Shown here one piece after another: positions 3,557 to 20,852 of a DNA stretch of 24,948 bases. The stretch is taken from IMG/VR virus record IMGVR_UViG_3300014903_000016, positions 1 to 24,948 of that record. One strand, written 5' to 3'. A model generated the notes under the pieces. That model was not told the origin of the DNA and did no database searches. It was given only the letters and a program-made list of their open reading frames with translations. Made by a program: the position numbers and the translations under genes. Source of the DNA: a virus. Numbering within the stretch: position 1 is the stretch's first letter; each line of letters starts with the position of its first letter.

Positions 3557-3909
3557 TTAGCCTCCACTCCCCAGGCTTTGAAATAGCGCGGATCTCTGGC
3601 CGGCCTTCGGACCGATCTGCGAATGATGAATTTTTTGTCCTGATCCATCAGTTCCAGCTTCTGACCTTTTTCAAGCTGCTGTTCGACGTTATAAATCACC
3701 GCCCATTGGGTTACTTTTTCGCCTTCCTCGGCAAAATTCATTTCGCCTTCTTTGAAAACGACATAGACGTTTATCGGCTGCGATTCCGTAACATAAGAGT
3801 TACGCCAGCCTTTTTTGACCTGAGTCCCCGATACTCTATTGTACAAAGCAGCTGGTTTCGCCCGGCGTCTAATGGCTTCGGCCTGTCCTCTTCCGCTTGG
3901 ATCATGCAT
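3553..3909 (-). CDS. Putative head-closure/minor head-tail protein, 118 aa
   Basis: A small, basic protein (many Arg/Lys at both ends) with a beta-rich core: PINVYVVFKEGEMNFAEEGE, then WAVIYNVEQQLEKGQKLELM. The size, the core and the position between a tail-completion-like gene and a neck-terminator-like gene fit a head-closure (stopper) protein of the small beta-barrel type. I recognise no diagnostic motif, so the role rests on gene order. The ATG at 3909 overlaps the preceding gene by 8 nt. The stop overlaps the next start as an ATGA-type 4-nt overlap, so it belongs to the coupled late operon. Confidence 0.55.
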   Translation of the reverse strand: MHDPSGRGQAEAIRRRAKPAALYNRVSGTQVKKGWRNSYVTESQPINVYVVFKEGEMNFAEEGEKVTQWAVIYNVEQQLEKGQKLELMDQDKKFIIRRSVRRPARDPRYFKAWGVEAN

Positions 3910-4276
3910 CGGTTTTCACTATGATTGACATTGCGAGTTGCGGCGGAGGATCGGTCTGATCGCGCATGGCCTGTTGAATCTCGGCTCCGAGAACTTTGAG
4001 TTCGTCGGTTATGTCCACGCCGTCCAGAAGAACTTTCTTGGCTATATTTATGAGCTGACTTTTGATTTCGGCTTCTCTGTTGTCTACCGTAGTTCTCAGG
4101 AGCAAGTCGGCCGTTTGCGGACGAAATTTCTGTAAGGTTCCGTAGCGAAATTGTTTTTTTGGAGAGTCCTCGACTATCCCAACCAGCACCTGCGAGACGT
4201 GGGGTAAGGATTGGAGCTTCGAAAGGAAAGCTTTCATTCCAGTGTCCTTGTCGATTACTTTTCCGTTTTCGGCCAT
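3902..4276 (-). CDS. Tail-completion/HK97 gp10-like morphogenesis protein
   Basis: The 124-aa product has an N-terminal helix (MKAFLSKLQSL), a strand with VLVGIVEDS, then the stretch LLLRTTVDNREAEIKSQL leading into a long helix with KKVLLDGVDITDELKVLG. This order (short strand, L-R-x-T/P-x-D, long amphipathic helix, closing helix with EIQQAMRD) is the pattern of phage virion-morphogenesis and HK97 gp10-like tail-completion proteins, which sit at the head-tail joint. No good Shine-Dalgarno precedes the ATG at 4276. A palindrome lies in the 77-nt gap upstream. Function is inferred from the pattern and from the neighbours. Confidence 0.55.
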   Translation of the reverse strand: MAENGKVIDKDTGMKAFLSKLQSLPHVSQVLVGIVEDSPKKQFRYGTLQKFRPQTADLLLRTTVDNREAEIKSQLINIAKKVLLDGVDITDELKVLGAEIQQAMRDQTDPPPQLAMSIIVKTDA

Positions 4277-4317: not shown

Positions 4318-4340
4318 AGGGCGCGAAGCATCGCGTCCCT
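4318..4340. repeat. Imperfect GC-rich palindrome between late genes
   Basis: The segment AGGGCGCGAAGCATCGCG plus TCCCT folds into a stem of about nine base pairs with one bulged base and a 4-nt loop. It stands in an AT-rich 77-nt gap, the largest gap between adjacent late genes in this part of the operon. It is not followed by a T-run in the transcribed (minus) direction, so it is not a classical terminator. It resembles the short GTAGGGACGCGA-type palindromes dispersed in many bacterial genomes (REP-like). It could also be an mRNA-processing or stability element. Confidence 0.4.
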
Positions 4341-4353
4341 ACAAAATATTAAT

Positions 4354-4566
4354 TCAGATCACATTATGAAAAAGCGCGGCTCTGACGGCGCAGTCTTTTG
4401 CTTCCAGCAGCTTGCGCAGAGCGGTTGTTCTTTCGGGATTGCGCGGTAGTTCGTTAACCAGCTCGTAAGCTAAGGAATAAAAACGTTTGCTGATTTCCTG
4501 CAAATCTTCGGGCAGATGGACATATTCAAAAAATTGCAGCAAATATTCATATTTTTCGTCAGGCAT
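4354..4566 (-). CDS. Acb2/Tad1-hairpin-like small protein (putative anti-CBASS)
   Basis: This 70-aa protein matches by eye the short helical-hairpin family that includes Acb2. Acb2 is a phage protein that binds and sequesters the cyclic nucleotide signals of CBASS. Features seen: an aromatic N-terminal stretch (F12, F13, Y15), a first helix EDLQEISKRFYSLAYELV with K27, a turn LPRNPERTTA, and a second helix ALRKLLEAKDCAVRAAL matching the family pattern T/S-x-AL-x-K/x-L-x-EA-x-x-x-x-x-A-A. Length agrees with the 60-95 aa typical of the family. The start shares a base with the upstream stop (TAATG). The biochemical role is inferred; related small proteins in phage head operons have mostly not been tested. 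Confidence 0.6.
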   Translation of the reverse strand: MPDEKYEYLLQFFEYVHLPEDLQEISKRFYSLAYELVNELPRNPERTTALRKLLEAKDCAVRAALFHNVI

Positions 4567-5264
4567 TAGTAAAGTCCTCCATAGACTCGATATTTAACGA
4601 TGCGGGTTCTTCTGATTTGCAGAAATCTGGCTCCCATGATCGTCAGAAGGTCTTCCTGCCCCGCTTTCGGATTATTTCTCGGCATGGTCCAGGAAGTCGA
4701 TTCTCCTTCGAAAGATTCACTTGAGACATTGCCCTGTCCGGCGGCCGGCACTAATGTTTGAAGCGCGAAGTGAGCGGCCAGATATTTCTGAGCGTCGCGG
4801 AGTCTGTCTCCGTATATCTGTTCCTTGCATCGTCTGCCGGTTTCCAGAAGAATTTCCGATCTCAATCCGTATATTGATGATCTGTCGGAATCAATCGTAA
4901 GATTCGCCCCTACCGAGACGGTATTTTCAAGCAGCTCCAGCTCGGTTTTATCGTAAATGACTATAGTGTCGTCAAAATCAGACTGAATCTCAAAATCGAA
5001 TTTATAGAAAATCAGGCGTTGGCTTTTCAGATCGTCTATCCAGGCGATGGCCACGTCGGCGTTGGATTCGCCCGCTTGTCTTGTATACGTGTACAATTCC
5101 GCGTTCAGCGTCATCTCGTATACAAAGCCCTCGGCGGCGTCTCCTATGATGATCTCGGCCAGAATATCAAGCGAGAATACCTGAAGATCGGCGTTGTAGT
5201 AGCGACCTGCGGCCAGAACGTCTTTCCAGGTCGCCGCTATTTTGAGACCATCTATTTCTTTCAT
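4566..5264 (-). CDS. Head-tail connector protein with DUF4054-like C-terminus
   Basis: Residues ~145-215 contain YGDRLRDAQKYLAAHFALQT followed by AGQGNVSSESFEGESTSW. This is the hallmark of DUF4054 head-tail adaptor proteins: a long helix with AHxLAL, then a glycine-rich loop and an S-S-E-S...G-x-x-S strand. They assemble as a ring below the portal. The first ~140 residues are an added beta-rich region (for example FVYEMTLNAELYTYTRQ) not usual for the family, which is normally about 120-150 aa. The stop shares one base with the start of the Acb2-like gene. The connector role is well supported by family and position; the N-terminal extension has no assigned function. Confidence 0.65.
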   Translation of the reverse strand: MKEIDGLKIAATWKDVLAAGRYYNADLQVFSLDILAEIIIGDAAEGFVYEMTLNAELYTYTRQAGESNADVAIAWIDDLKSQRLIFYKFDFEIQSDFDDTIVIYDKTELELLENTVSVGANLTIDSDRSSIYGLRSEILLETGRRCKEQIYGDRLRDAQKYLAAHFALQTLVPAAGQGNVSSESFEGESTSWTMPRNNPKAGQEDLLTIMGARFLQIRRTRIVKYRVYGGLY

Positions 5265-5270
5265 ATCCGT

Positions 5271-5990
5271 TTACTTCTGAGCTTTCTTAAGAGCCTGCTT
5301 GAATTTCTTTTCCGCCTCTCCGGACGCTTTTTCAATATTCTCCGTAAAATCATTCTCGGCGGTGACTTGAGCTTCCAGAATGCTCTTTTCGAAATCCTGT
5401 TTCTGAGTCTCGATCGCGGCGGACATATCGTTGTTGAATGTACTGATATTGTCTGTAATAGCCAATTTAATGGACGCGGCAGCTTGCGTTTTCAGATCAG
5501 TCAAAAGCTGCTCTGATAAAAGTTTGATTTTGTTTTCAAAATCAATCAATGGATCGGCGGATAATTGCACTGACAAAATCTTCGCCTTTTCCTGAAAATC
5601 ATTCAGAGCTTTGGAAAGAGACTCAGCAACGGATTTATCAAACTGAGCTACAAACACGGAAATATCAAGCATGGCGGGGGACATGACAGGAGCGTCGGCA
5701 GCGGGAGCGCGTCTATTTATTGCCGGAAACATTGAACTGACCGCGTTTCCGGCTCGTTTCAGCAAAGATTCCCGCTGTTCCTTCTCCTTTTCGCTCTCCG
5801 GACGTTTTTCGTCTTTGACTTTAAAAGTTTTCTCTTTTAAATAATGCTGAAAACCCGGAGAATTTTCTGTGAGAAAATCCAGATCATCGCTCGTTATCCA
5901 GTTGTCTCCTTCCGTCACCTGCACAACGCCAGTGGGTATGAAAAAATCGCGTTGAATTTTTTTTCTATTGGTAACTAAAATTTTTTCCAT
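5271..5990 (-). CDS. Coiled-coil-rich hypothetical structural protein
   Basis: The 239-aa protein lies directly after the major capsid gene. Residues 1-55 form a compact N-terminal region (RRDFF-like IQRDFFIPTGVVQVTEGD, then LDFLTENSPGFQHYL), weakly like the N-terminal domain of some Mu-like virion proteins. A charged linker and a Pro/Ala-rich segment (RRAPAADAPVMSPAM) follow. From about residue 108 to the end it is long alpha-helical heptad-like sequence ending in KKFKQALKKAQK. Such a layout fits a fibrous virion or assembly protein. I do not recognise a defined family. The ATG at 5990 has only an A-rich leader and no clear ribosome-binding site. Confidence 0.6.
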   Translation of the reverse strand: MEKILVTNRKKIQRDFFIPTGVVQVTEGDNWITSDDLDFLTENSPGFQHYLKEKTFKVKDEKRPESEKEKEQRESLLKRAGNAVSSMFPAINRRAPAADAPVMSPAMLDISVFVAQFDKSVAESLSKALNDFQEKAKILSVQLSADPLIDFENKIKLLSEQLLTDLKTQAAASIKLAITDNISTFNNDMSAAIETQKQDFEKSILEAQVTAENDFTENIEKASGEAEKKFKQALKKAQK

Positions 5991-6026
5991 TTTTTTAATG
6001 AATAATGACTGACGGTTTTTGCGTTT

Positions 6027-7211
6027 TTAAAAAGAGGTGAAGCGGCGGACGGCCTGTTTGCGTCGGATTTTCATTCCGCTAATTTTAAAATATCCGAAAA
6101 ATTTAATAACGGTTCCGACGAACTGAGGCGGAAGCCAGGTCAAAGGAACTGTATTGTCCACTTCCAGAACGTCATCGTCATTTTCCCATGCGATTCCCAT
6201 CTCAACGCCTCCGGGACCAGCGCCAGCCAGTTCGACCATGGGAGTAATTCTTTCTAAACCGTATGTTTTCGTTTGTCCTAATAGCCATTCCAGCAATGAA
6301 ATGGGATGCGGAGCCACGGCTGAATCTATCCAGTTGAAACGCAAAAAATTATAACGATTAAAAGAGATACCTATATCGGTAGGAGAATGATGCCCGAAAG
6401 TTTGTTCGTTAATCAAACCAATCAGGTTTTCTCCAAAGTCTACATTCAAAATCGCCTCCGGAGATTTATTCAACCAGAGTTTAGCGGCCGCCGATGCTCC
6501 AGCCACTTCCGCCTCAACTATTTGGGGATGGGTAATGAACCCGTTGATATTGTCTTCGGGAGAACCGACCACCACGATATCGTGCATGGTTTGTTCCGAG
6601 CCAACTTGAGCCGCGCGAATCTTGCGTGACTCGATTGGTCTGCCGGTTTTGGCCGCTTTCAGGAGGTCTTCAATCGTCACCTCGAATTCCACGTCTTTCT
6701 TAACGATCGGCACGGAGTCTTTTTTCTCCGTGACATCGTATTTGGCGTGAGTGTTGGTCGCGTCTCCGGACGTGTCGGAAACTCCGATCAGCTCTTCCAT
6801 CGTATAGCTGGACGTGGTGTCGGCCGGATCGCCCTGCGTTTTGACGGGAAACAGGTCTCTGAAGTTCGTCTTCTTATATTTGAACTCGTAGAACCGAGGG
6901 TCAAAAAACTCGAATTGTCCCATGGGACCGGCGGCGTAGGCGGTGTCGGCGGCTACGTTGCCTGGCTGATCCAAAAACGAATGTTCATGTTTATCGGCGG
7001 CGGTCAACCCGAGCTGCGCCAATTCTACCGGAGTTTTCTGTTCCACTCCCGTAGCGGCCATTTCAAGACTTTTTAATGCGCCGAGAATAGCTTGTACCTG
7101 CTCTGGCTTTTTCTGATCAAAACCTAATTGACGCGCAAAATTGGCGTCATTAGCCAGAAGCATCAGCGTGCTATAGGCAACTCCTTCTCCTAATATATCT
7201 GGTAAAGGCAT
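6027..7211 (-). CDS. Major capsid protein (DUF2184-type, HK97 fold)
   Basis: The 394-aa protein has the features of DUF2184 major capsid proteins. An N-terminal helical region is followed by RFYEFKYKKTNFRDLFPVKT and by the E-loop-like strands SSYTMEELIGVSD and IVKKDVEFEVTIEDLLKA. A P-domain-like part contains RKIRAAQVGSEQTMHDIVVV. The C-terminal VPLTWLPPQFVGTVIKFFGY matches the conserved LPPQ strand of this family. It would form the HK97-fold shell. A good Shine-Dalgarno (TTAGGAG) precedes the ATG at 7211. Its position after the protease/scaffold and cement genes is the usual one. Confidence 0.85.
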   Translation of the reverse strand: MPLPDILGEGVAYSTLMLLANDANFARQLGFDQKKPEQVQAILGALKSLEMAATGVEQKTPVELAQLGLTAADKHEHSFLDQPGNVAADTAYAAGPMGQFEFFDPRFYEFKYKKTNFRDLFPVKTQGDPADTTSSYTMEELIGVSDTSGDATNTHAKYDVTEKKDSVPIVKKDVEFEVTIEDLLKAAKTGRPIESRKIRAAQVGSEQTMHDIVVVGSPEDNINGFITHPQIVEAEVAGASAAAKLWLNKSPEAILNVDFGENLIGLINEQTFGHHSPTDIGISFNRYNFLRFNWIDSAVAPHPISLLEWLLGQTKTYGLERITPMVELAGAGPGGVEMGIAWENDDDVLEVDNTVPLTWLPPQFVGTVIKFFGYFKISGMKIRRKQAVRRFTSF

Positions 7212-11853: not shown

Positions 11854-12708
11854 TCACAGTAAGCCTAAAGGTCTGAGCATCCATTGCACATAGATAACTA
11901 CCTGAGCACTGCCCATGTTCATATATTCCAGATAATCGTCTGTGTCGTTTCTGGCGTTGACATAGCGAACGTTTCCGCCAATCAAGGCGTCATCCCATCG
12001 CCACTGTAGGAACATGTCGAACAGCATAGAGGTATTATCCTCGTAGCTTTTATTGCTTTCCCCGGAGGAATCCTTATACTCCGCTTCGACTCCTACATGT
12101 CCGAGACCGAGGCGTAGCCCCAAGGCCCAGCGAGGAGAAAGATTAGCGTTAACGCTGACGTAGGGAAGATAGGAGGTATATTTCAGTCTGTCGATCGCGC
12201 CGGGATTGCCCATATTGTGAGAGTCCCCGCTGGCGTCGGTGTATTGGATACTTTTAAAATCTCTTCCGCCTTTTTTCGCCCATTCCTGATAGAGAAAACC
12301 GACTGCGAAACTCTTGTTCAGATAGTATTCCCAGGCCGCTCCGTTGAACATTAATTTTTCGGGCATACCGGGATCGTCGAACTGATAGGCTCCCGGAATA
12401 ACGTAGGGAGCCAGCTCGATACGGACTTGGTGTCTGGTGATAATATCTGAGACGGCGGACTGATTCTGATTTGTTTCTTTGTTGGAGGAGGTAAGCGGAT
12501 TTTGAAAGACGTTGATGTTGTTTTCTCCTGATCCGGGGCCGCTGTTGGTTTTGGGAAGCGGATTGTCGGATTTTGCCTTGCAGGTTTCCCAGGTGTCACT
12601 GGTGTTAACAATTGGAACGCTGCCAATACAACCGGCGAAAGAGGAGGCGGGGCAAACGAGTAACAAAATTATAAGGAATAAAAAAAGAGAAAAAACAGAA
12701 TTTTTCAT
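11854..12708 (-). CDS. Secreted outer-membrane beta-barrel-like protein
   Basis: The 284-aa product starts with a clear signal peptide: MKNS, a hydrophobic core FLFLIILLLVCP, then ASSFAGC. Cleavage could be by signal peptidase I after SFA, or by signal peptidase II at a lipobox-like FAGC. A disordered Asn/Ser/Gly-rich linker (about 45-90) follows. The rest is alternating amphipathic strands typical of small outer-membrane barrels (ALGLRLGLGHVGVEAEYKD, then MLFDMFLQWRWDDALIGGNV), ending in YVQWMLRPLGLL. It lies between portal and terminase, has a good ribosome-binding site (GAGGGAAC) and would be expressed late. Phage outer-membrane proteins such as lambda Lom alter the host surface; a role of that kind is inferred. 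Confidence 0.65.
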   Translation of the reverse strand: MKNSVFSLFLFLIILLLVCPASSFAGCIGSVPIVNTSDTWETCKAKSDNPLPKTNSGPGSGENNINVFQNPLTSSNKETNQNQSAVSDIITRHQVRIELAPYVIPGAYQFDDPGMPEKLMFNGAAWEYYLNKSFAVGFLYQEWAKKGGRDFKSIQYTDASGDSHNMGNPGAIDRLKYTSYLPYVSVNANLSPRWALGLRLGLGHVGVEAEYKDSSGESNKSYEDNTSMLFDMFLQWRWDDALIGGNVRYVNARNDTDDYLEYMNMGSAQVVIYVQWMLRPLGLL

Positions 12709-14803: not shown

Positions 14804-16999
14804 ATGACATTATATAGTCAGGATAGCAACCCCGAAAGCGGGCAGGAACGCTTTAATTTCCTGCTCTCGAAGCTCAAAAACATCAGCGTCAACGGTCAAA
14901 GCGCCAAGGCGAGTTGTCCAGTGCATAGAGATCAAACCCCTTCTCTTGAAGTCACTCTTCAGTCCGACGAAAAAATCAGCGTCAAATGTCATGTCGGATG
15001 CGATTACAGGGACATTCTCGACTCTATTGATATCAAGCCCGCGTTTCTATATCCTCCCTCCCGCCAGCGAGCAAGCAAACAAGGCACTCAAGACCCCTCC
15101 AAAAAACGCATAGTCCATATATATCAGTATAGAAAACTAAATGGCCATCCGGCGTATCAAGCGGTAAGATTCGAGCCGAAGGATTTTCGGATGCGGCAGG
15201 ACGAAAAAGTCTGGTCGATGAAAGACGTGAGCATGGTCCCTTATAATCTGCCGGAGGTCAGCAAAGCGATCGGCAAAGAGCGGGTTATTTTATTCGTAGA
15301 GGGAGAGAAGGACGCGGACAACGGCATGCAGTTGGGATTTACCACCACTACTGTAGCCGGCGGAAATGGGAAGTGGCGGGATGAGTACGCGGAATATTTT
15401 CAGGACGCCGATCTGGTGTTTCTGCCTGATAACGATGCTCCGAGAATTTCCGGAGCTTTAAAAATCGCAAAAAAGCTCCGCAACATTGCCAGAAGGATAA
15501 GAATTCTGGCTCTGCCTGTAGGACTCAAGGGAGATATCTCGGACTGGATCAAAGCCGGCGGAGACAGGCGAAAACTGAGCGAGCTGATTTTTCTTGAGGG
15601 AGTTTTTCTGGATGAGGCTCTGAAAGTGCATCAGCTCAATCGAAGACACGCGGTGATCATGGTACAGGGCAAGCTGGCGGTGATGAACGAGGAGTTAAAC
15701 CCCACTTTCGGACGCAATGAAATTACGCTCTCGACTGATAAACATTTTGAAGGGAGGTACAGAAATAAACAGGCATTAAGAACCTTCTGGAAAAAAGACA
15801 CGGTAATGGAGCAAAAAGAAAAAAACAGATTAATAATGAATTTAGAAAAAGCGGGGAGAAAAATTCCTAAAGAATTGCGGTCGGCTTATAGCCAGAAAAC
15901 ACTCAAAATAGAAGCTGGTAAAATGTGGTCGGAATCGCCTCAGAGACGGCAATATAACGGTTTTTTCTTTGATCCGTCGGGGCCTCCGGAGCAAAATCAT
16001 CATTACAATTTGTGGCGGGGATTCAACGTGAAAGCCAAGAAGGGCGATTGTCATCTTTATTACAAGCATATTTCGGAAGTGATCGCCAAAGATTACGGCG
16101 AAATCTACGAGTATCTAATTGACTGGATGGCTGACGCGGTGCAGAACAGGAGTCAACGTCCGGGCGTAACATTAGTGTTACGCGGAGGACAGGGAACCGG
16201 GAAGGGAACTATGGTTAATATTTTTGGTAAACTTTTCGGACAACATTTTCTGCCGGTTTCGGATGCGAAACACATCGTTGGAGCGTTTAACTCGCACCAG
16301 AAAGACTGTTTGGTTATGTTTGCCGACGAAGCTTTCTACGCCGGAGACAAAAAACACGAGTCTATTCTGAAAAACATCATTACTGAAAAAACCAGAGCTA
16401 TAGAGTTCAAGGGCAAGGACGTTCAGATACTGCCAAACTACACGCGCCTAATCATGGCGTCCAATCAGCATTGGGTTGCGCCGCTGGCCATGGATGACAG
16501 GCGATTTTTCATCATAGACATCAGCAATCTGAGGGCCAAGGACAGGAAATATTTCCGCGATATCTACAATCAGATGGAGAACCAAGGAGGCTACGAGGCT
16601 CTGTTGTATGATCTCCTGCATAGAGACATCAGCAAGGTGGACATCCGCGATTATCCGAAAACACAGGCCATTCTGGACAACAAGCTGGAATCCTTAGACT
16701 CCATAGGGCAATGGGTATTCGAAAATCTGGTGACTGGCCGACTTTATAGCATGCACATAGAAAGCAGCATTTCCGGAATGTATGAAGAGTATAAGGAAAA
16801 CTGTTCTTTCAGACCGTCATCGTATAATTATTGGACAAGGGAGATGCGGAGATATTTTCCGCATCTACAGACCAGACAGGTCGCTCATGAAAGCCGACGT
16901 TATTATGACATGGACTCTATCGACCGATTGAGGACGGAGTTTGAAGCCAGGCTGGGAGCCAAGGTCAACTGGGACGATGAGGATTATCAGGGGTATTAA
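14804..16999 (+). CDS. Primase-helicase (CHC2-like zinc, TOPRIM, SF3/DUF5906)
   Basis: The 731-aa protein is a replicative primase-helicase. A zinc-binding module shows C38-P-x-H41 and C62-x-x-x-C66. The TOPRIM domain (about 155-250) shows VILFVEGEKDADNGM (catalytic Glu) and DLVFLPDNDAP, the acidic D-x-D. The C-terminal half is an SF3/DUF5906-type helicase: Walker A LRGGQGTGKGT (about 458-468), Walker B-like LVMFADEAFYAG (about 501-512), sensor MASNQHW and DDRRFFIID. Such proteins make primers and unwind phage DNA at the fork. It heads a coupled operon: its TAA abuts the next ATG. No Shine-Dalgarno is visible before its own ATG, only an A/T-rich leader below a strong hairpin. Confidence 0.85.
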   Translation: MTLYSQDSNPESGQERFNFLLSKLKNISVNGQSAKASCPVHRDQTPSLEVTLQSDEKISVKCHVGCDYRDILDSIDIKPAFLYPPSRQRASKQGTQDPSKKRIVHIYQYRKLNGHPAYQAVRFEPKDFRMRQDEKVWSMKDVSMVPYNLPEVSKAIGKERVILFVEGEKDADNGMQLGFTTTTVAGGNGKWRDEYAEYFQDADLVFLPDNDAPRISGALKIAKKLRNIARRIRILALPVGLKGDISDWIKAGGDRRKLSELIFLEGVFLDEALKVHQLNRRHAVIMVQGKLAVMNEELNPTFGRNEITLSTDKHFEGRYRNKQALRTFWKKDTVMEQKEKNRLIMNLEKAGRKIPKELRSAYSQKTLKIEAGKMWSESPQRRQYNGFFFDPSGPPEQNHHYNLWRGFNVKAKKGDCHLYYKHISEVIAKDYGEIYEYLIDWMADAVQNRSQRPGVTLVLRGGQGTGKGTMVNIFGKLFGQHFLPVSDAKHIVGAFNSHQKDCLVMFADEAFYAGDKKHESILKNIITEKTRAIEFKGKDVQILPNYTRLIMASNQHWVAPLAMDDRRFFIIDISNLRAKDRKYFRDIYNQMENQGGYEALLYDLLHRDISKVDIRDYPKTQAILDNKLESLDSIGQWVFENLVTGRLYSMHIESSISGMYEEYKENCSFRPSSYNYWTREMRRYFPHLQTRQVAHESRRYYDMDSIDRLRTEFEARLGAKVNWDDEDYQGY

Positions 17000-17671
17000 A
17001 TGATCATAAAACCGCAATCATTGGAACATGACGATCTAATAAATATAGAAGTCTCCGATGATGAAATAGAATGCCACACTGCCGCGTATAATGAGGCATT
17101 CTATCAGATAATAAAAAATTACGATTTCAAGTGGTCCGGATTGCTCAGAAAATGGATAAAAAAAGTTGTTCTAGAAAACATACAAAATAGGACTGCGGAA
17201 ATAGGCTATATTCTGCTGCTGGAAGGCTTTGTCGTTTCAATAAACGATCAGGAGATAGCTCGAAAAATACAGACGAATGACTTTCAATATGAGCCAACAA
17301 GGGTAATAGACGTCTGTTCATTTGCGGGTTATGAAAACTATCTGACGGTGTCATGGAAAAGAGAGGACTTGTATTCATGCGTTCGGCATAATCTTTATGG
17401 CAGCAAATATATTAAAAAACATAAAGCAATAGTGGTTCCTCTCTATTTTTATGAAGAGATATATGACGTTGCTGATGATTACGGATTCCTGATCACCGAG
17501 GCGGCTAGAGCCAAGATAGAAGAGGGTAGAAAAAACGTCATGACGCTCTTCAATCTCGAAGCTCCCGTAAAAAAAAACAAAACTGTCTTCCACGCCCCGA
17601 AAAAATTGGAACCCAAGCGAAGCGCTATTCATGATAACCTTAAAGACCAGCCCATATCAGCATCAATCTGA
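17000..17671 (+). CDS. HARP-like accessory protein of the SNF2 helicase (putative)
   Basis: The 223-aa product begins directly after the primase stop, with AGGGG as ribosome-binding site, and overlaps the SNF2 gene by 41 nt. The piece YDFKWSGLLRKWIKKV resembles the F-x-W/Y-x-x-x-x-x-x-W hallmark of HARP-type and related substrate-recognition modules next to SNF2 motors. A second part, IVVPLYFYEEIYDVADDYGF, then LITEAARAKI, resembles the closing helix pair of such modules. The C-terminal 40 residues are basic and probably disordered. In many phages this region is fused to the helicase; here it would be a separate subunit. The domain match is weak and by eye, and the function is inferred mainly from the overlap. 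Confidence 0.45.
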   Translation: MIIKPQSLEHDDLINIEVSDDEIECHTAAYNEAFYQIIKNYDFKWSGLLRKWIKKVVLENIQNRTAEIGYILLLEGFVVSINDQEIARKIQTNDFQYEPTRVIDVCSFAGYENYLTVSWKREDLYSCVRHNLYGSKYIKKHKAIVVPLYFYEEIYDVADDYGFLITEAARAKIEEGRKNVMTLFNLEAPVKKNKTVFHAPKKLEPKRSAIHDNLKDQPISASI

Positions 17672-19019
17672 CGCGGTAAAAAAACTGTTGCCAAGCAAAG
17701 TCGGAGCTTTATTCATGGAAATGGGGACCGGCAAAAGCAGAACCGCTATGGAATTGATCGCTCTGAGGCAAAAAAAAATATCAAACATAATCTGGTTTTG
17801 TCCTTTCTCTATAAAATGGGCCTTGGCCGAAGAACTTCAGAAACATATTGCCGACCAGCCCGATTTGATACATGTTTTCAGCGATAAGACGAAGTTGAGC
17901 GACATACCCATTGAAAAACTGCATATTGTGGGAATAGAGTCCGTCAGCAGTAGTCCCAACGTTGTCTTCTGTCTGCATAAAATTATCAGCGAAAACAGCT
18001 ATATTGTGGTTGACGAATCTTTTTACATCAAAAATCCGTCAGCCAAGCGCACTATCTGGATCAGCGAGCTGACCAAAAATTGTCGCTATAAGTTGATTTT
18101 AACGGGAACTCCCATAGCTCATAGCGTTATTGATCTTTATGCTCAGATAAAGTTTTTGTCCCGAAAAATATTCGGATACAGCTCCTATTACGCATTTTCG
18201 AAAAATCATGTCGAGATAATAGAAGAGGACTGGGGATACTCGAAAGAAGCCCGCAACACTGAATATTTAGCGGCCAGACTTGAACCGTATGTCTATCAGA
18301 TTACCAAGGAAGAATGTCTCGATCTGCCGGACAAGGTCTATCAGCCGCATTATTTCGATATGAGCTTCGAGCAAAGAGAAGGTTATAATCTCGCTAAAGA
18401 CGAGCTTCTGTTCAATCTGGATGTGGATGACTTCGATTATAAAAGCATATTGCAGCTCTTTACCGTGCTACAGCAGATAGTCTGCGGCTTCCGGTATCAT
18501 AAAGAGAAGGTGGAAACTTTCGAGAATAACCGTCTCAAGGTTCTTATTGACGTGCTCAATTACATTCCGGAAGATAAGAAAATCATCATTTTCTGCAAAT
18601 ACCGCTATGACATTCAAGCAATATCCGAAGCGTTAAGCGAAGAAAAAATATCGCTCTATCATGGCGGCCTGAAAGAAAAACCCAGAAAACGGGAGTTGAA
18701 AACTTTCAGAAGCGAAAGTCGAATTTTCCTGAGCACTATCGGGACTGGCGGTCATGGCCTGACTCTAAACGAAGCTCCATATACTATTTTTTATAACAAC
18801 ACTTTCAAATACACGGACCGCGTTCAGGCGGAAGATCGCAATCATCGTATCGGACAGGAGGTCTCTCCGAATTATATAGACATAATCTGCAATGACAGTA
18901 TCGATAAAAAAATAGAGAGATCGTTTGAGCTGAAAAGCGATGTAGTCAATTTGTTCAAAAAACAGGTTAAGCAAGCCGACGATATTGAAAAACGCGAATC
19001 CATGCTGGAGACTCTATGA
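17631..19019 (+). CDS. SNF2-type superfamily 2 helicase/translocase
   Basis: The 462-aa protein has the full set of SF2/SNF2 motifs: Q-motif-like SPYQHQSDAV, Walker A MEMGTGKSRTA (GTGKS at 32-36), motif II VVDESFYIKN (D128, E129), motif III LILTGTP. In the second RecA-like lobe are IIFCKYRYD, HGGLKEKPRKRE, motif V FLSTIGTGGHGLTLNEA and motif VI DRVQAEDRNHRIGQ. It is a compact SNF2 motor that would translocate on DNA or displace proteins, at phage replication forks or on modified/recombining DNA. Motif II is DESF rather than DEAH. The start overlaps the HARP-like gene and the stop overlaps the DUF3440 start by 4 nt. Confidence 0.85.
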   Translation: MITLKTSPYQHQSDAVKKLLPSKVGALFMEMGTGKSRTAMELIALRQKKISNIIWFCPFSIKWALAEELQKHIADQPDLIHVFSDKTKLSDIPIEKLHIVGIESVSSSPNVVFCLHKIISENSYIVVDESFYIKNPSAKRTIWISELTKNCRYKLILTGTPIAHSVIDLYAQIKFLSRKIFGYSSYYAFSKNHVEIIEEDWGYSKEARNTEYLAARLEPYVYQITKEECLDLPDKVYQPHYFDMSFEQREGYNLAKDELLFNLDVDDFDYKSILQLFTVLQQIVCGFRYHKEKVETFENNRLKVLIDVLNYIPEDKKIIIFCKYRYDIQAISEALSEEKISLYHGGLKEKPRKRELKTFRSESRIFLSTIGTGGHGLTLNEAPYTIFYNNTFKYTDRVQAEDRNHRIGQEVSPNYIDIICNDSIDKKIERSFELKSDVVNLFKKQVKQADDIEKRESMLETL

Positions 19020-20305
19020 GTAAAAAATATTTGGATATGAACGTCTACGAGGCCGCACTGCAAAGATTGAATTATATCTATGATGAATTTTCGGAGGATG
19101 AAATCTGGCTGGCTCTCAGCGGCGGCAAGGATAGTTCACTCTGCTTTTACCTGATGAAGGAAGTCGCGCTGGCTAAAGGAATCAAGACGATCAATATTAT
19201 GATTATCGATTTGGAAGGACATTACAAACTCCATAGCGATTTCCTTGAAGAGCTGATAGCCGACGATGAAATTCAGGTGAACGGCTACTGGATATGTCTG
19301 CCGTTTAATTTGTCTAACGCATCCTCCTTTCATATGCCGAAATGGCTATGCTGGGAAGCCGAGAAGAAGGATAAGTGGGTTAGGCCAATGCCTGACAACA
19401 GACTGGTCGTAAACGAGCTAAACAACCCGTTTGGAGAGTATTTTCGGAAGGGAATGGAGTTCGAGGAGTTTATTATTCAGTTTCCCCGGTATTTAGTGGA
19501 GCAAAAAGGGCTTGGCAAAGTGGCGCAGGTGATAGGAATCAGAACGCAGGAGAGCTATAATCGTTATCTAAAAATGAAAGTTCGGGCCCACAGAGAGTTT
19601 TATAATGGCATTCAATGGATATTGAAGCAGAAAATCACCGGATACGACACCTATAGCGTCCATCCGATCTACGATTGGGACATCAAGGATGTCTGGAAAT
19701 ATTCTTCAACCGTTCCCTATAACAAAGTTTATGATAAAATGTACCTGGCCGGGTATCCGTTGAACTCTATGAGAATATGTCAGCCTTACGGAGAAGAGCA
19801 AAGGGACAACATTGATCTGTTCTGCAAGATAGAGCCTGAGACCTGGGCCAGAATAGTCGAGAGAGTAGGCGGAGTAAATTTCGCCAAGCTCTATAAGGGG
19901 AAAAACATCATTAAGGGAAGGATTAAAAAACCGGAAAATACGACATGGGAGAACTGGTCGCGGCTCATATTGACGACTATGCCTCCGTTTTTGAGAGATC
20001 ACTATCTGAGAAGAATCAACGTGTTTTTGAGGTGGTGGCGAAAAAGGATTCATGACGATATTCCGCATGTTTACGCGAAAGAATATCATGAGAATGAAGC
20101 GTTTGATGAAGAAGGTCTCTATGTCGTGAAAATTCACGATGAGCATCCGATGGATACCGCCGCTAAGAAACGAAAGCCCTCCTGGAGGAGAATAGCGAAA
20201 GTTCTGCTTAAGGGAGATTATTTATGCAAAAACTTAAAATTCGCGGCTAATCAGCAGGAGTATGAAAAACTTGAAGCTTTAAAGGAGAGATATGCTAATT
20301 TGTGA
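19016..20305 (+). CDS. DUF3440 PAPS-reductase-like ATPase (IbrA-like)
   Basis: The 429-aa product has the PP-loop SGGKDSS (35-41) after an EIWLALSGG strand, as in PAPS reductases and N-type ATP pyrophosphatases, and the DUF3440 features IGIRTQESYNRY, HPIYDWDIKDVW, YPLNSMRICQPYGEEQRDN and the C-terminal WRRIAKVLLKGDYLCKNLKF. The family (IbrA type) is found with ParB-like IbrB proteins on phages and mobile elements. Its substrate is not settled. PP-loop enzymes adenylate a substrate, and in DNA phosphorothioation relatives activate sulfur transfer. A good ribosome-binding site (CTGGAGACTCT) and the 4-nt overlap with the SNF2 gene imply joint expression. The family assignment is firm; the reaction is unknown. 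Confidence 0.8.
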   Translation: MSKKYLDMNVYEAALQRLNYIYDEFSEDEIWLALSGGKDSSLCFYLMKEVALAKGIKTINIMIIDLEGHYKLHSDFLEELIADDEIQVNGYWICLPFNLSNASSFHMPKWLCWEAEKKDKWVRPMPDNRLVVNELNNPFGEYFRKGMEFEEFIIQFPRYLVEQKGLGKVAQVIGIRTQESYNRYLKMKVRAHREFYNGIQWILKQKITGYDTYSVHPIYDWDIKDVWKYSSTVPYNKVYDKMYLAGYPLNSMRICQPYGEEQRDNIDLFCKIEPETWARIVERVGGVNFAKLYKGKNIIKGRIKKPENTTWENWSRLILTTMPPFLRDHYLRRINVFLRWWRKRIHDDIPHVYAKEYHENEAFDEEGLYVVKIHDEHPMDTAAKKRKPSWRRIAKVLLKGDYLCKNLKFAANQQEYEKLEALKERYANL

Positions 20306-20852
20306 TACTGTCAAACAGGTGTTTGATAAAATGAAGCATGGTTATGATTTGTCTGAAGAGGAAAAGCGGTTGGCGTTTCCATGTCTATTCGCCGAACTGG
20401 TCCTGCTTGAGAAGGTCCAGTTAAATGACTACAATCCAAACGCGGTGGCTCCCCCGGAGATGCGTCTGTTGAAAAAGTCTATTGAGGAAGACGGCTACAC
20501 GCAGCCTATAGTCACTATCTATGACACTGAAAACGACAAATATATAGTTGTGGATGGAGCGCACAGGTATAAGAACGCGGTAAAATTCAAATTGAGTCAT
20601 GTGCCAGTCACAGTGATCAATAAGGAAATTAAGGATCGTATGGCGTCCACTATCCGCCATAATAGAGCCAGGGGAGAGCATAAAGTCACCCAAATGAGCA
20701 ATATCGTTGCGGAGCTGGTTTTGTTGGGGTGGGACAATCTAAAAATCAGCCGGCATCTAGGGATGGAGGCTGACGAAGTTTTGAGGTTGAAGCAGAATAC
20801 CGGCCTGCCGGAAATATTCAAAAATCATGAATATTCCAGGGCTTGGGAATAG
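20292..20852 (+). CDS. ParB-like nuclease-fold protein (IbrB-like)
   Basis: The 186-aa protein has a ParB/Srx fold core: KKSIEEDGYTQPIVTIYD, then YIVVDGAHRYKNAV with the conserved D-G-x-H-R (88-92), and VPVTVINKE. After the core comes RHNRARGEHKVTQMSNIV and a helix-turn-helix-like segment LGWDNLKISRHLGMEADEV. This IbrB-type arrangement occurs beside DUF3440 proteins. ParB folds bind or cut DNA, or bind CTP or ATP; which applies here is unknown. The start, preceded by AAAGGAGAG, overlaps the DUF3440 gene by 14 nt, so the two are coupled. It is the last gene of the plus-strand operon. Confidence 0.8.
   Translation: MLICDTVKQVFDKMKHGYDLSEEEKRLAFPCLFAELVLLEKVQLNDYNPNAVAPPEMRLLKKSIEEDGYTQPIVTIYDTENDKYIVVDGAHRYKNAVKFKLSHVPVTVINKEIKDRMASTIRHNRARGEHKVTQMSNIVAELVLLGWDNLKISRHLGMEADEVLRLKQNTGLPEIFKNHEYSRAWE

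Follow-up and report, generated by a model that had tools for sequence, protein, structure and literature searches.

Does the small protein encoded among the head-tail genes of this virus belong to the Acb2/Tad1 hairpin proteins, and would it hold its ligand as characterized Acb2 proteins do? The question was raised by a preliminary description, made from the sequence, in which the 70-aa protein was taken for an Acb2-like anti-CBASS protein. The window analyzed here is the whole of an IMG/VR virus record (IMGVR_UViG_3300014903_000016; 24,948 bases), and the relatives of the 70-aa protein are referred to as the window family.

The gene, its surroundings and its relatives

The features at the locus are compiled in Table 1. 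The proposed 70-aa reading frame was confirmed on the minus strand together with its overlapping start: the TAA stop of the upstream gene and the ATG overlap by one nucleotide (the common A) in TAATG, and the reverse strand reads GGAGG-ACTTTACTA-ATG at this site. Residues F12, F13, Y15 and K27 as well as ALRKLLEAKDCAVRAAL are present exactly as had been claimed. Because a GGAGG precedes an ATG that overlaps the upstream stop codon, the gene is likely translated together with the connector operon, which would make the protein a late one. A search for a promoter of its own yielded consensus-level sites only (25 versus 16.5 +/- 4.0 in shuffled sequences), none of which was used further, and the RNA fold of the stretch 3' of the gene was not unusual (z -1.36). 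Directly after the gene (4319-4342, minus strand) lies the GC-rich palindrome GTAGGGACGCGATGCTTCGCGCCC, which occurs as a single copy in the window and is presumably similar to bacterial REP-like repeats.

Table 1. Features at the locus of the 70-aa protein (positions in the window)
Feature	Position	Strand	Evidence and remarks
Acb2/Tad1-hairpin-like protein, 70 aa	4354..4566	minus	ATG start; ORF, family, profile and model evidence
Shine-Dalgarno-like GGAGG	4576..4580	minus	Sequence; 9 nt ahead of the ATG, in the terminal part of the 232-aa gene
Upstream gene, 232 aa, head-tail connector-like	4566..5264	minus	DUF4054 / phrog_302, weak match under the cut-off
Downstream gene, 124 aa, tail completion / Neck1-like	3902..4276	minus	phrog_222, E 1.5e-4

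The head and packaging genes near the 70-aa gene encode a major capsid protein (PF09950), a cement protein (PF22758), a DUF2213 protease, a terminase and a portal protein (PF06381). The two flanking genes match connector families weakly, DUF4054 with an E value of 0.027 and Neck1 with the value given in Table 1. A sister phage contig, L339, encodes a major capsid protein 79% identical to that of the window and carries a relative of the 70-aa gene at the same position (tblastn, 63% identity over 60 residues), where the flanking neighbors are 80% and 70% identical to their window counterparts. Between genes of the sister phage, two open reading frames (L339:9787-10020 and 12416-12565) have translations (FPRKRESK and VIPANAGIQ) that we take to resemble dispersed bacterial repeats. 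On the plus strand of the window, positions 14804-20852 encode a DUF5906 primase-like protein (14804-16999), an SNF2-type helicase (17631-19019) and a PAPS-reductase/DUF3440 protein (19016-20305), the gene of which overlaps that of a ParB_N protein (20292-20852). The last two form a pair that we assume to be similar to IbrA/IbrB.

Relatives of the 70-aa protein were found by tblastn in 331 of 50,697 phage records and in 395 of 406 pattern-matched IMG/VR stretches, so the gene is real and did not arise by chance. The best 80 of the 395 were carried forward. Another 37 loci, collected with two motif patterns only, lie on genome contigs labeled as bacteria of many phyla. The 70-aa protein is a clear member of PHROG 1761 (4e-27) and PHROG 5120 (1e-21), neither of which carries a functional assignment. 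Fourteen of the 15 named phage records that were opened call the gene product a "hypothetical protein" and one calls it plainly "gp67", and when the 70-aa protein was searched directly against Pfam, NCBIfam and PADLOC, nothing exceeded a cut-off. Pfam, PHROGs and the phage records examined leave the family without a name. Two matches below cut-off, Occludin_ELL in Pfam (E 0.075) and Dps in NCBIfam, were rejected as generic helix similarity; the former is probably the source of the label "occludin homology domain protein" in Acinetobacter phage Ab1656-2. In Erwinia phage SNUABM_3 (L345:1728-2180) the hairpin forms the C terminus of a 150-aa protein, which has an N-terminal P-loop-like stretch, GAVGSGKS, and no Pfam match over the cut-off, and in Gordonia phage Soos (L085:3557-4195) it forms the C terminus of a 212-aa protein.

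Relationship to the Acb2/Tad1 hairpin superfamily

The curated cut-off of the Pfam family Acb2_Tad1_hairpin (PF24729) is 27 bits. T4 Vs.4 reached 71 bits with this profile and gp102 of mycobacteriophage BigBubba, a strong PF24729 member that is termed a CBASS antagonist in the text cited (PMC11953737), reached 59 bits. When the window record was searched with the same profile, the 70-aa protein was not matched even at an E value of 10. The direct profile match by which the preliminary description had proposed to judge the assignment therefore fails for the window protein, and only the more sensitive comparison of profile with profile succeeds. Among eight members of the window family that were scanned, the best, AGM16 gp27, scored 16.4 bits (E 0.011) and the martha gene VPCG_00024 gave an E value of 0.057, both below threshold; in a separate scan of nine members, none was matched at an E value of 10. 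PHROG 1454 was common to all three, BigBubba gp102 matching it with 8e-30, the window protein with 3e-4 and T4 Vs.4 with 7e-4. In a PHROG 1454 search of 50 records, a match was obtained for 37 of the 38 that had been chosen for a window-family match and for none of the 12 chosen for a PaP2-type Acb2.

The alignment of the window family (68 rows) was compared by hhalign with that of the PF24729 family of BigBubba gp102, hereafter the bridge family. The score was 29.4-29.7 (probability 80.2, E 1.4e-5). Two hundred column shuffles did not exceed 18.7, the reversed alignment gave 9.6, and 19 unrelated phage families scored at most 16.0 against the window family; these controls are what remained of 22 phage ORF clusters from the fetched loci after three related families had been excluded. 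An alignment of characterized Acb2 proteins scored 25.4 and 24.6 against the bridge family in two runs (range 24-26). Because the window family scored 29.4-29.7 in the same comparison, it appears by this measure to be at least as close to the bridge family as characterized Acb2 is. Direct comparison of the window family with 70 sequences of the Vs.4/PaP2 type (68 plus two queries) gave a score of 15.0 with a probability of 1.7%, while 60 shuffles reached 18.1; in the opposite direction the score was 11.6. Among the 22 ORF clusters, the Vs.4 cluster scored 16.0 against the window family, no more than unrelated families. At an E value of 0.01 or better, the window-family members retrieved with the bridge profile as a single HMM came from Acinetobacter phage Aclw_8 and from two of the genome loci.

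One phage contig, L007, encodes a PF24729 protein (33.6 bits; 4680-4937) and, about 0.85 kb apart, a window-family protein (5791-6189). Because both hairpin types occur on this contig, they may have separate jobs. As an alternative bridge, the PF24729 protein of L007 recovered its own contig alone, plus four phage records. On another contig that has a window-family gene, L203 (G048:C1:26109-26204), a partial PF24729 match to positions 1-32 (19 bits, under the cut-off) sits inside an open frame of 693 codons.

The AlphaFold2 model of the 70-aa protein, built with 68 sequences, had a pLDDT of 91.3 and a pTM of 0.78. It consists of a short helix (residues 8-13) and two long antiparallel helices (20-39 and 44-67), just as the Acb2 protomer is described as one short and two long helices (PMC12043709). 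The model of the bridge family has two helices, 13-36 and 41-63, joined by the same four-residue turn. In a Foldseek search of BFVD, a set of predicted viral structures, the window model found its own relatives first. Beyond these, the matches that carry a name were mainly Acb2/Tad1 hairpins, which accounted for 13 of rows 7-50 and reached a probability of 1.00 and an E value of 0.031 at best. For the bridge model, 18 of the first 21 rows were named Acb2/Tad1 hairpins, and ranks 28 and 37 were window-family entries that had also been top matches of the window model. The best solved structure for the bridge model was T4 Vs.4 (7uq2; Z 7.4, rmsd 3.5, 63 aligned), closely followed by 8h2x and 8h2j; Z values in this range are also reached by unrelated bundles. 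Searches of the PDB with the window model, a small helical protein, by Foldseek and VIA-align returned designed or unrelated bundles as the best matches, and Acb2 was not among the matches listed. A PDB sequence search with the 70-aa protein alone yielded mainly designed helical repeats and no Acb2. A solved Acb2 homolog, homolog 43 (9ptq), belongs near the bridge family and not near the window family, since it matched BigBubba gp102 with an E value of 1.1e-5 and the window protein with an E value of 1.1, behind unrelated chains. That it was solved means that others are already sampling Acb2 diversity; no paper describing it was found in the literature searched, which covered few subscription papers.

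Homology of the window family to the Acb2/Tad1 hairpin superfamily is well supported and, in our judgment, very likely. The profile comparison with the bridge family, the two sub-threshold PF24729 matches, the predicted fold and the Foldseek results all bear out the Acb2-type hairpin that had been proposed for the 70-aa protein. The comparisons and models thus give good support to the view that the window family is a divergent branch of this superfamily in the wider sense, hitherto without a name. In the same literature, with its few subscription papers, no paper joining the window family to Acb2 was found.

Candidate pocket and possible functions

The Vs.4 hexamer requires L29, A66, A73 and A77, the protein holds cGAMP through Y8, H11, K23, R79 and F82, and the exchange S74N impairs binding (PMC10097602). 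Helix 2 of Vs.4 aligns with that of the window protein without gaps, such that A66, A73, A77 and R79 correspond to A49, A56, A60 and R62, S74 to K57 and F82 to L65; a Phe or Tyr at position 66 is off by one residue. The hexamer residue L29 aligns with L32. The position of K23, which is basic in Acb2 and was aligned via the bridge family, where it is an invariant Arg, is S26 in the window protein. Mapped by eye, Y15 and H17 are plausible equivalents of Y8 and H11.

Conservation was counted over 110 members of the window family. F13 and H17 occur in all 110 and S26 is Ser in 105. Position 49 is Ala, Gly or Cys in 107 members, A56 is Ala in 105 and C59 is conserved in 105, while K57, D58 and R62 are found in all 108 members ungapped there (two gaps among 110); counts at positions 54-63 are partly built in, the member scans having used patterns that include LLEAKDCA or AKDCAVRA. 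In 15 named-phage members obtained by tblastn without patterns, the inspected alignment showed K57 in 14 (absent from JA11) and D58 and R62 in 14 each (V13 has neither). K27, singled out in the preliminary description, is Lys in 48 and Arg in 18 of the 110 members and did not prove to be a conserved feature; it is S26 that aligns with K23 of Vs.4. As judged from these alignments, the candidate pocket of the window family differs from that of known Acb2 in that K23 is replaced by S26 and S74 by K57, and in that D58 is added.

We lean, with moderate confidence, toward the 70-aa protein being a sponge of the Acb2 type that has diverged and whose candidate ligand pocket is altered, a reading in which the fold is well supported and the function is inferred from homology and conservation. 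Most likely, the protomers would pack into an Acb2-like oligomer via the small residues A49, A56 and A60 of helix 2 together with L32, the oligomer would hold a nucleotide-type immune signal between its subunits, and the sequestered signal would be kept from its effector. Because S26, K57 and D58 alter the pocket, the ligand is probably bound differently from cGAMP in T4 Acb2 and may be a different signal; the pocket changes thus fit a divergent sponge with another ligand, which the preliminary description had offered as an alternative. One reason for which Acb2-type proteins may change ligand is that T4 Acb2 triggers the Panoptes defence, so that nucleotide removal is not always the phage's gain (PMC12657218). 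Counted against a sponge are the simplicity of the hairpin fold, the loss of the pocket lysine and the replacement of the stacking F82 by L65. More tentatively, PHROG 1761 and PHROG 5120 could be a separate, widespread sponge branch with a pocket rebuilt from Ser, Lys, Asp and Arg for a signal not bound by known Acb2 or Tad1, possibly that of an undescribed signaling defence; we regard this as possible but rather doubtful. If the family were a sponge, many phages would possess a counter-defence so far unrecognized, and the identity of the ligand would indicate against which signal it was selected. The size of 60-70 aa and the conserved pocket-side residues make the idea directly testable.

A homologous hairpin might instead have lost nucleotide binding and serve virion assembly or another protein contact. 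Loss of the pocket lysine would agree with this, as does the gene's place between head and connector genes in the window and the sister phage. Location was followed over 118 loci (the window, 80 viral and 37 genome loci), of which 11 escaped the motif search and two were without flank; 105 had neighbors on both sides, as defined by crude ORF calls, with a few near-identical contigs among them. In a survey of 120 neighbor proteins from 69 loci, picked according to their strand, size and distance, the 25 PHROG families met most often comprised 17 head, packaging or tail families, next to three DNA polymerase families, one methyltransferase, one ParB and three nameless ones, but head genes are the best-annotated PHROGs and bias such a survey toward themselves. 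The gene has no fixed neighbor, the neighbor cluster shared by most loci occurring in nine of the 105. Five of the 15 named phages (Aclw_8, Soos, martha 12B12, Gustav and AGM16) carry the gene amid or close to genes for structure, packaging or lysis, and two (JA11 and SNUABM_5) slightly ahead of baseplate genes. The remaining eight (Cp1R7A-A1, Phayonce, Nigel, AD45-P1, phiAS5, SNUABM_3, 1244 and V13) have it at a distance from annotated structural genes, with examples next to a DNA methyltransferase, close to thyX and within a replication arm. The head-tail location put forward at the outset thus holds for the window and the sister phage but not family-wide, and because it varies so widely it says little about function. 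Because gene order around the family is unfixed, an accessory gene suits the data better than a fixed virion part. With the pocket-side K57, D58 and R62 ranking among the most conserved residues as well, we consider such a non-binding hairpin unlikely.

It is more doubtful still that the protein has the ordinary function, binding 3'3'-cGAMP and cyclic trinucleotides like T4 and PaP2 Acb2 with the help of compensating pocket residues. The equivalent of R79 (R62), the aromatic residue 15, His17 and the hexamer residues are retained, but the equivalent of K23 is Ser in nearly the whole family, that of F82 is Leu, Ile or Val in nearly all members, and Acb2 has 4-5 more residues between the aromatic residue and helix 1. 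An unrelated hairpin that arose by convergence, for instance an inhibitor of a host protein, is hardly probable: the fold is simple, the direct Vs.4/PaP2 comparison was not significant and the top solved-structure matches were designed or unrelated bundles, but the bridge-family score lies far above shuffles and above 19 unrelated real families, the same four-residue turn joins the long helices, the A-x6-A-x3-A spacing equals that of Vs.4, and PHROG 1454 and the sub-threshold PF24729 matches provide bridges.

Comparison with known systems

Of the known systems, PHROG 1761 and PHROG 5120 show no difference from the window protein, which falls within them. The BigBubba gp102 type (PF24729, PHROG 1454; solved relative 9ptq) shares with the window family a short N-terminal segment resembling F-x-Y/H-H-x-P, two long helices joined via an LPxx turn, and the pattern E-(K/R)..A..KL.EA...A. 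It differs in having AMFWANAAIAR where the window family has AKDCAVRA and Arg at the pocket position where the window family has Ser, and it exceeds the Pfam cut-off that the window protein misses. T4 Acb2 and PaP2 Acb2 share with the window protein the hexamer alanines and the ligand arginine (R79, corresponding to R62), and T4 Acb2 also shares the helix 2 motif KLxEAxxxAxRA. Unlike the 70-aa protein, the T4 and PaP2 proteins (Vs.4, 7uq2; p26, 8h2j) are 88-94 aa long with a longer turn, have Lys at the position of S26 and, in T4, Phe82 for stacking, and belong to PHROG 717. The hairpin part of Tad1 is in the same Pfam domain as Acb2 (PF24729) by Pfam's definition; as described, Tad1 is set apart by an N-terminal beta-sheet domain (PMC12043709), which is absent from the window protein.
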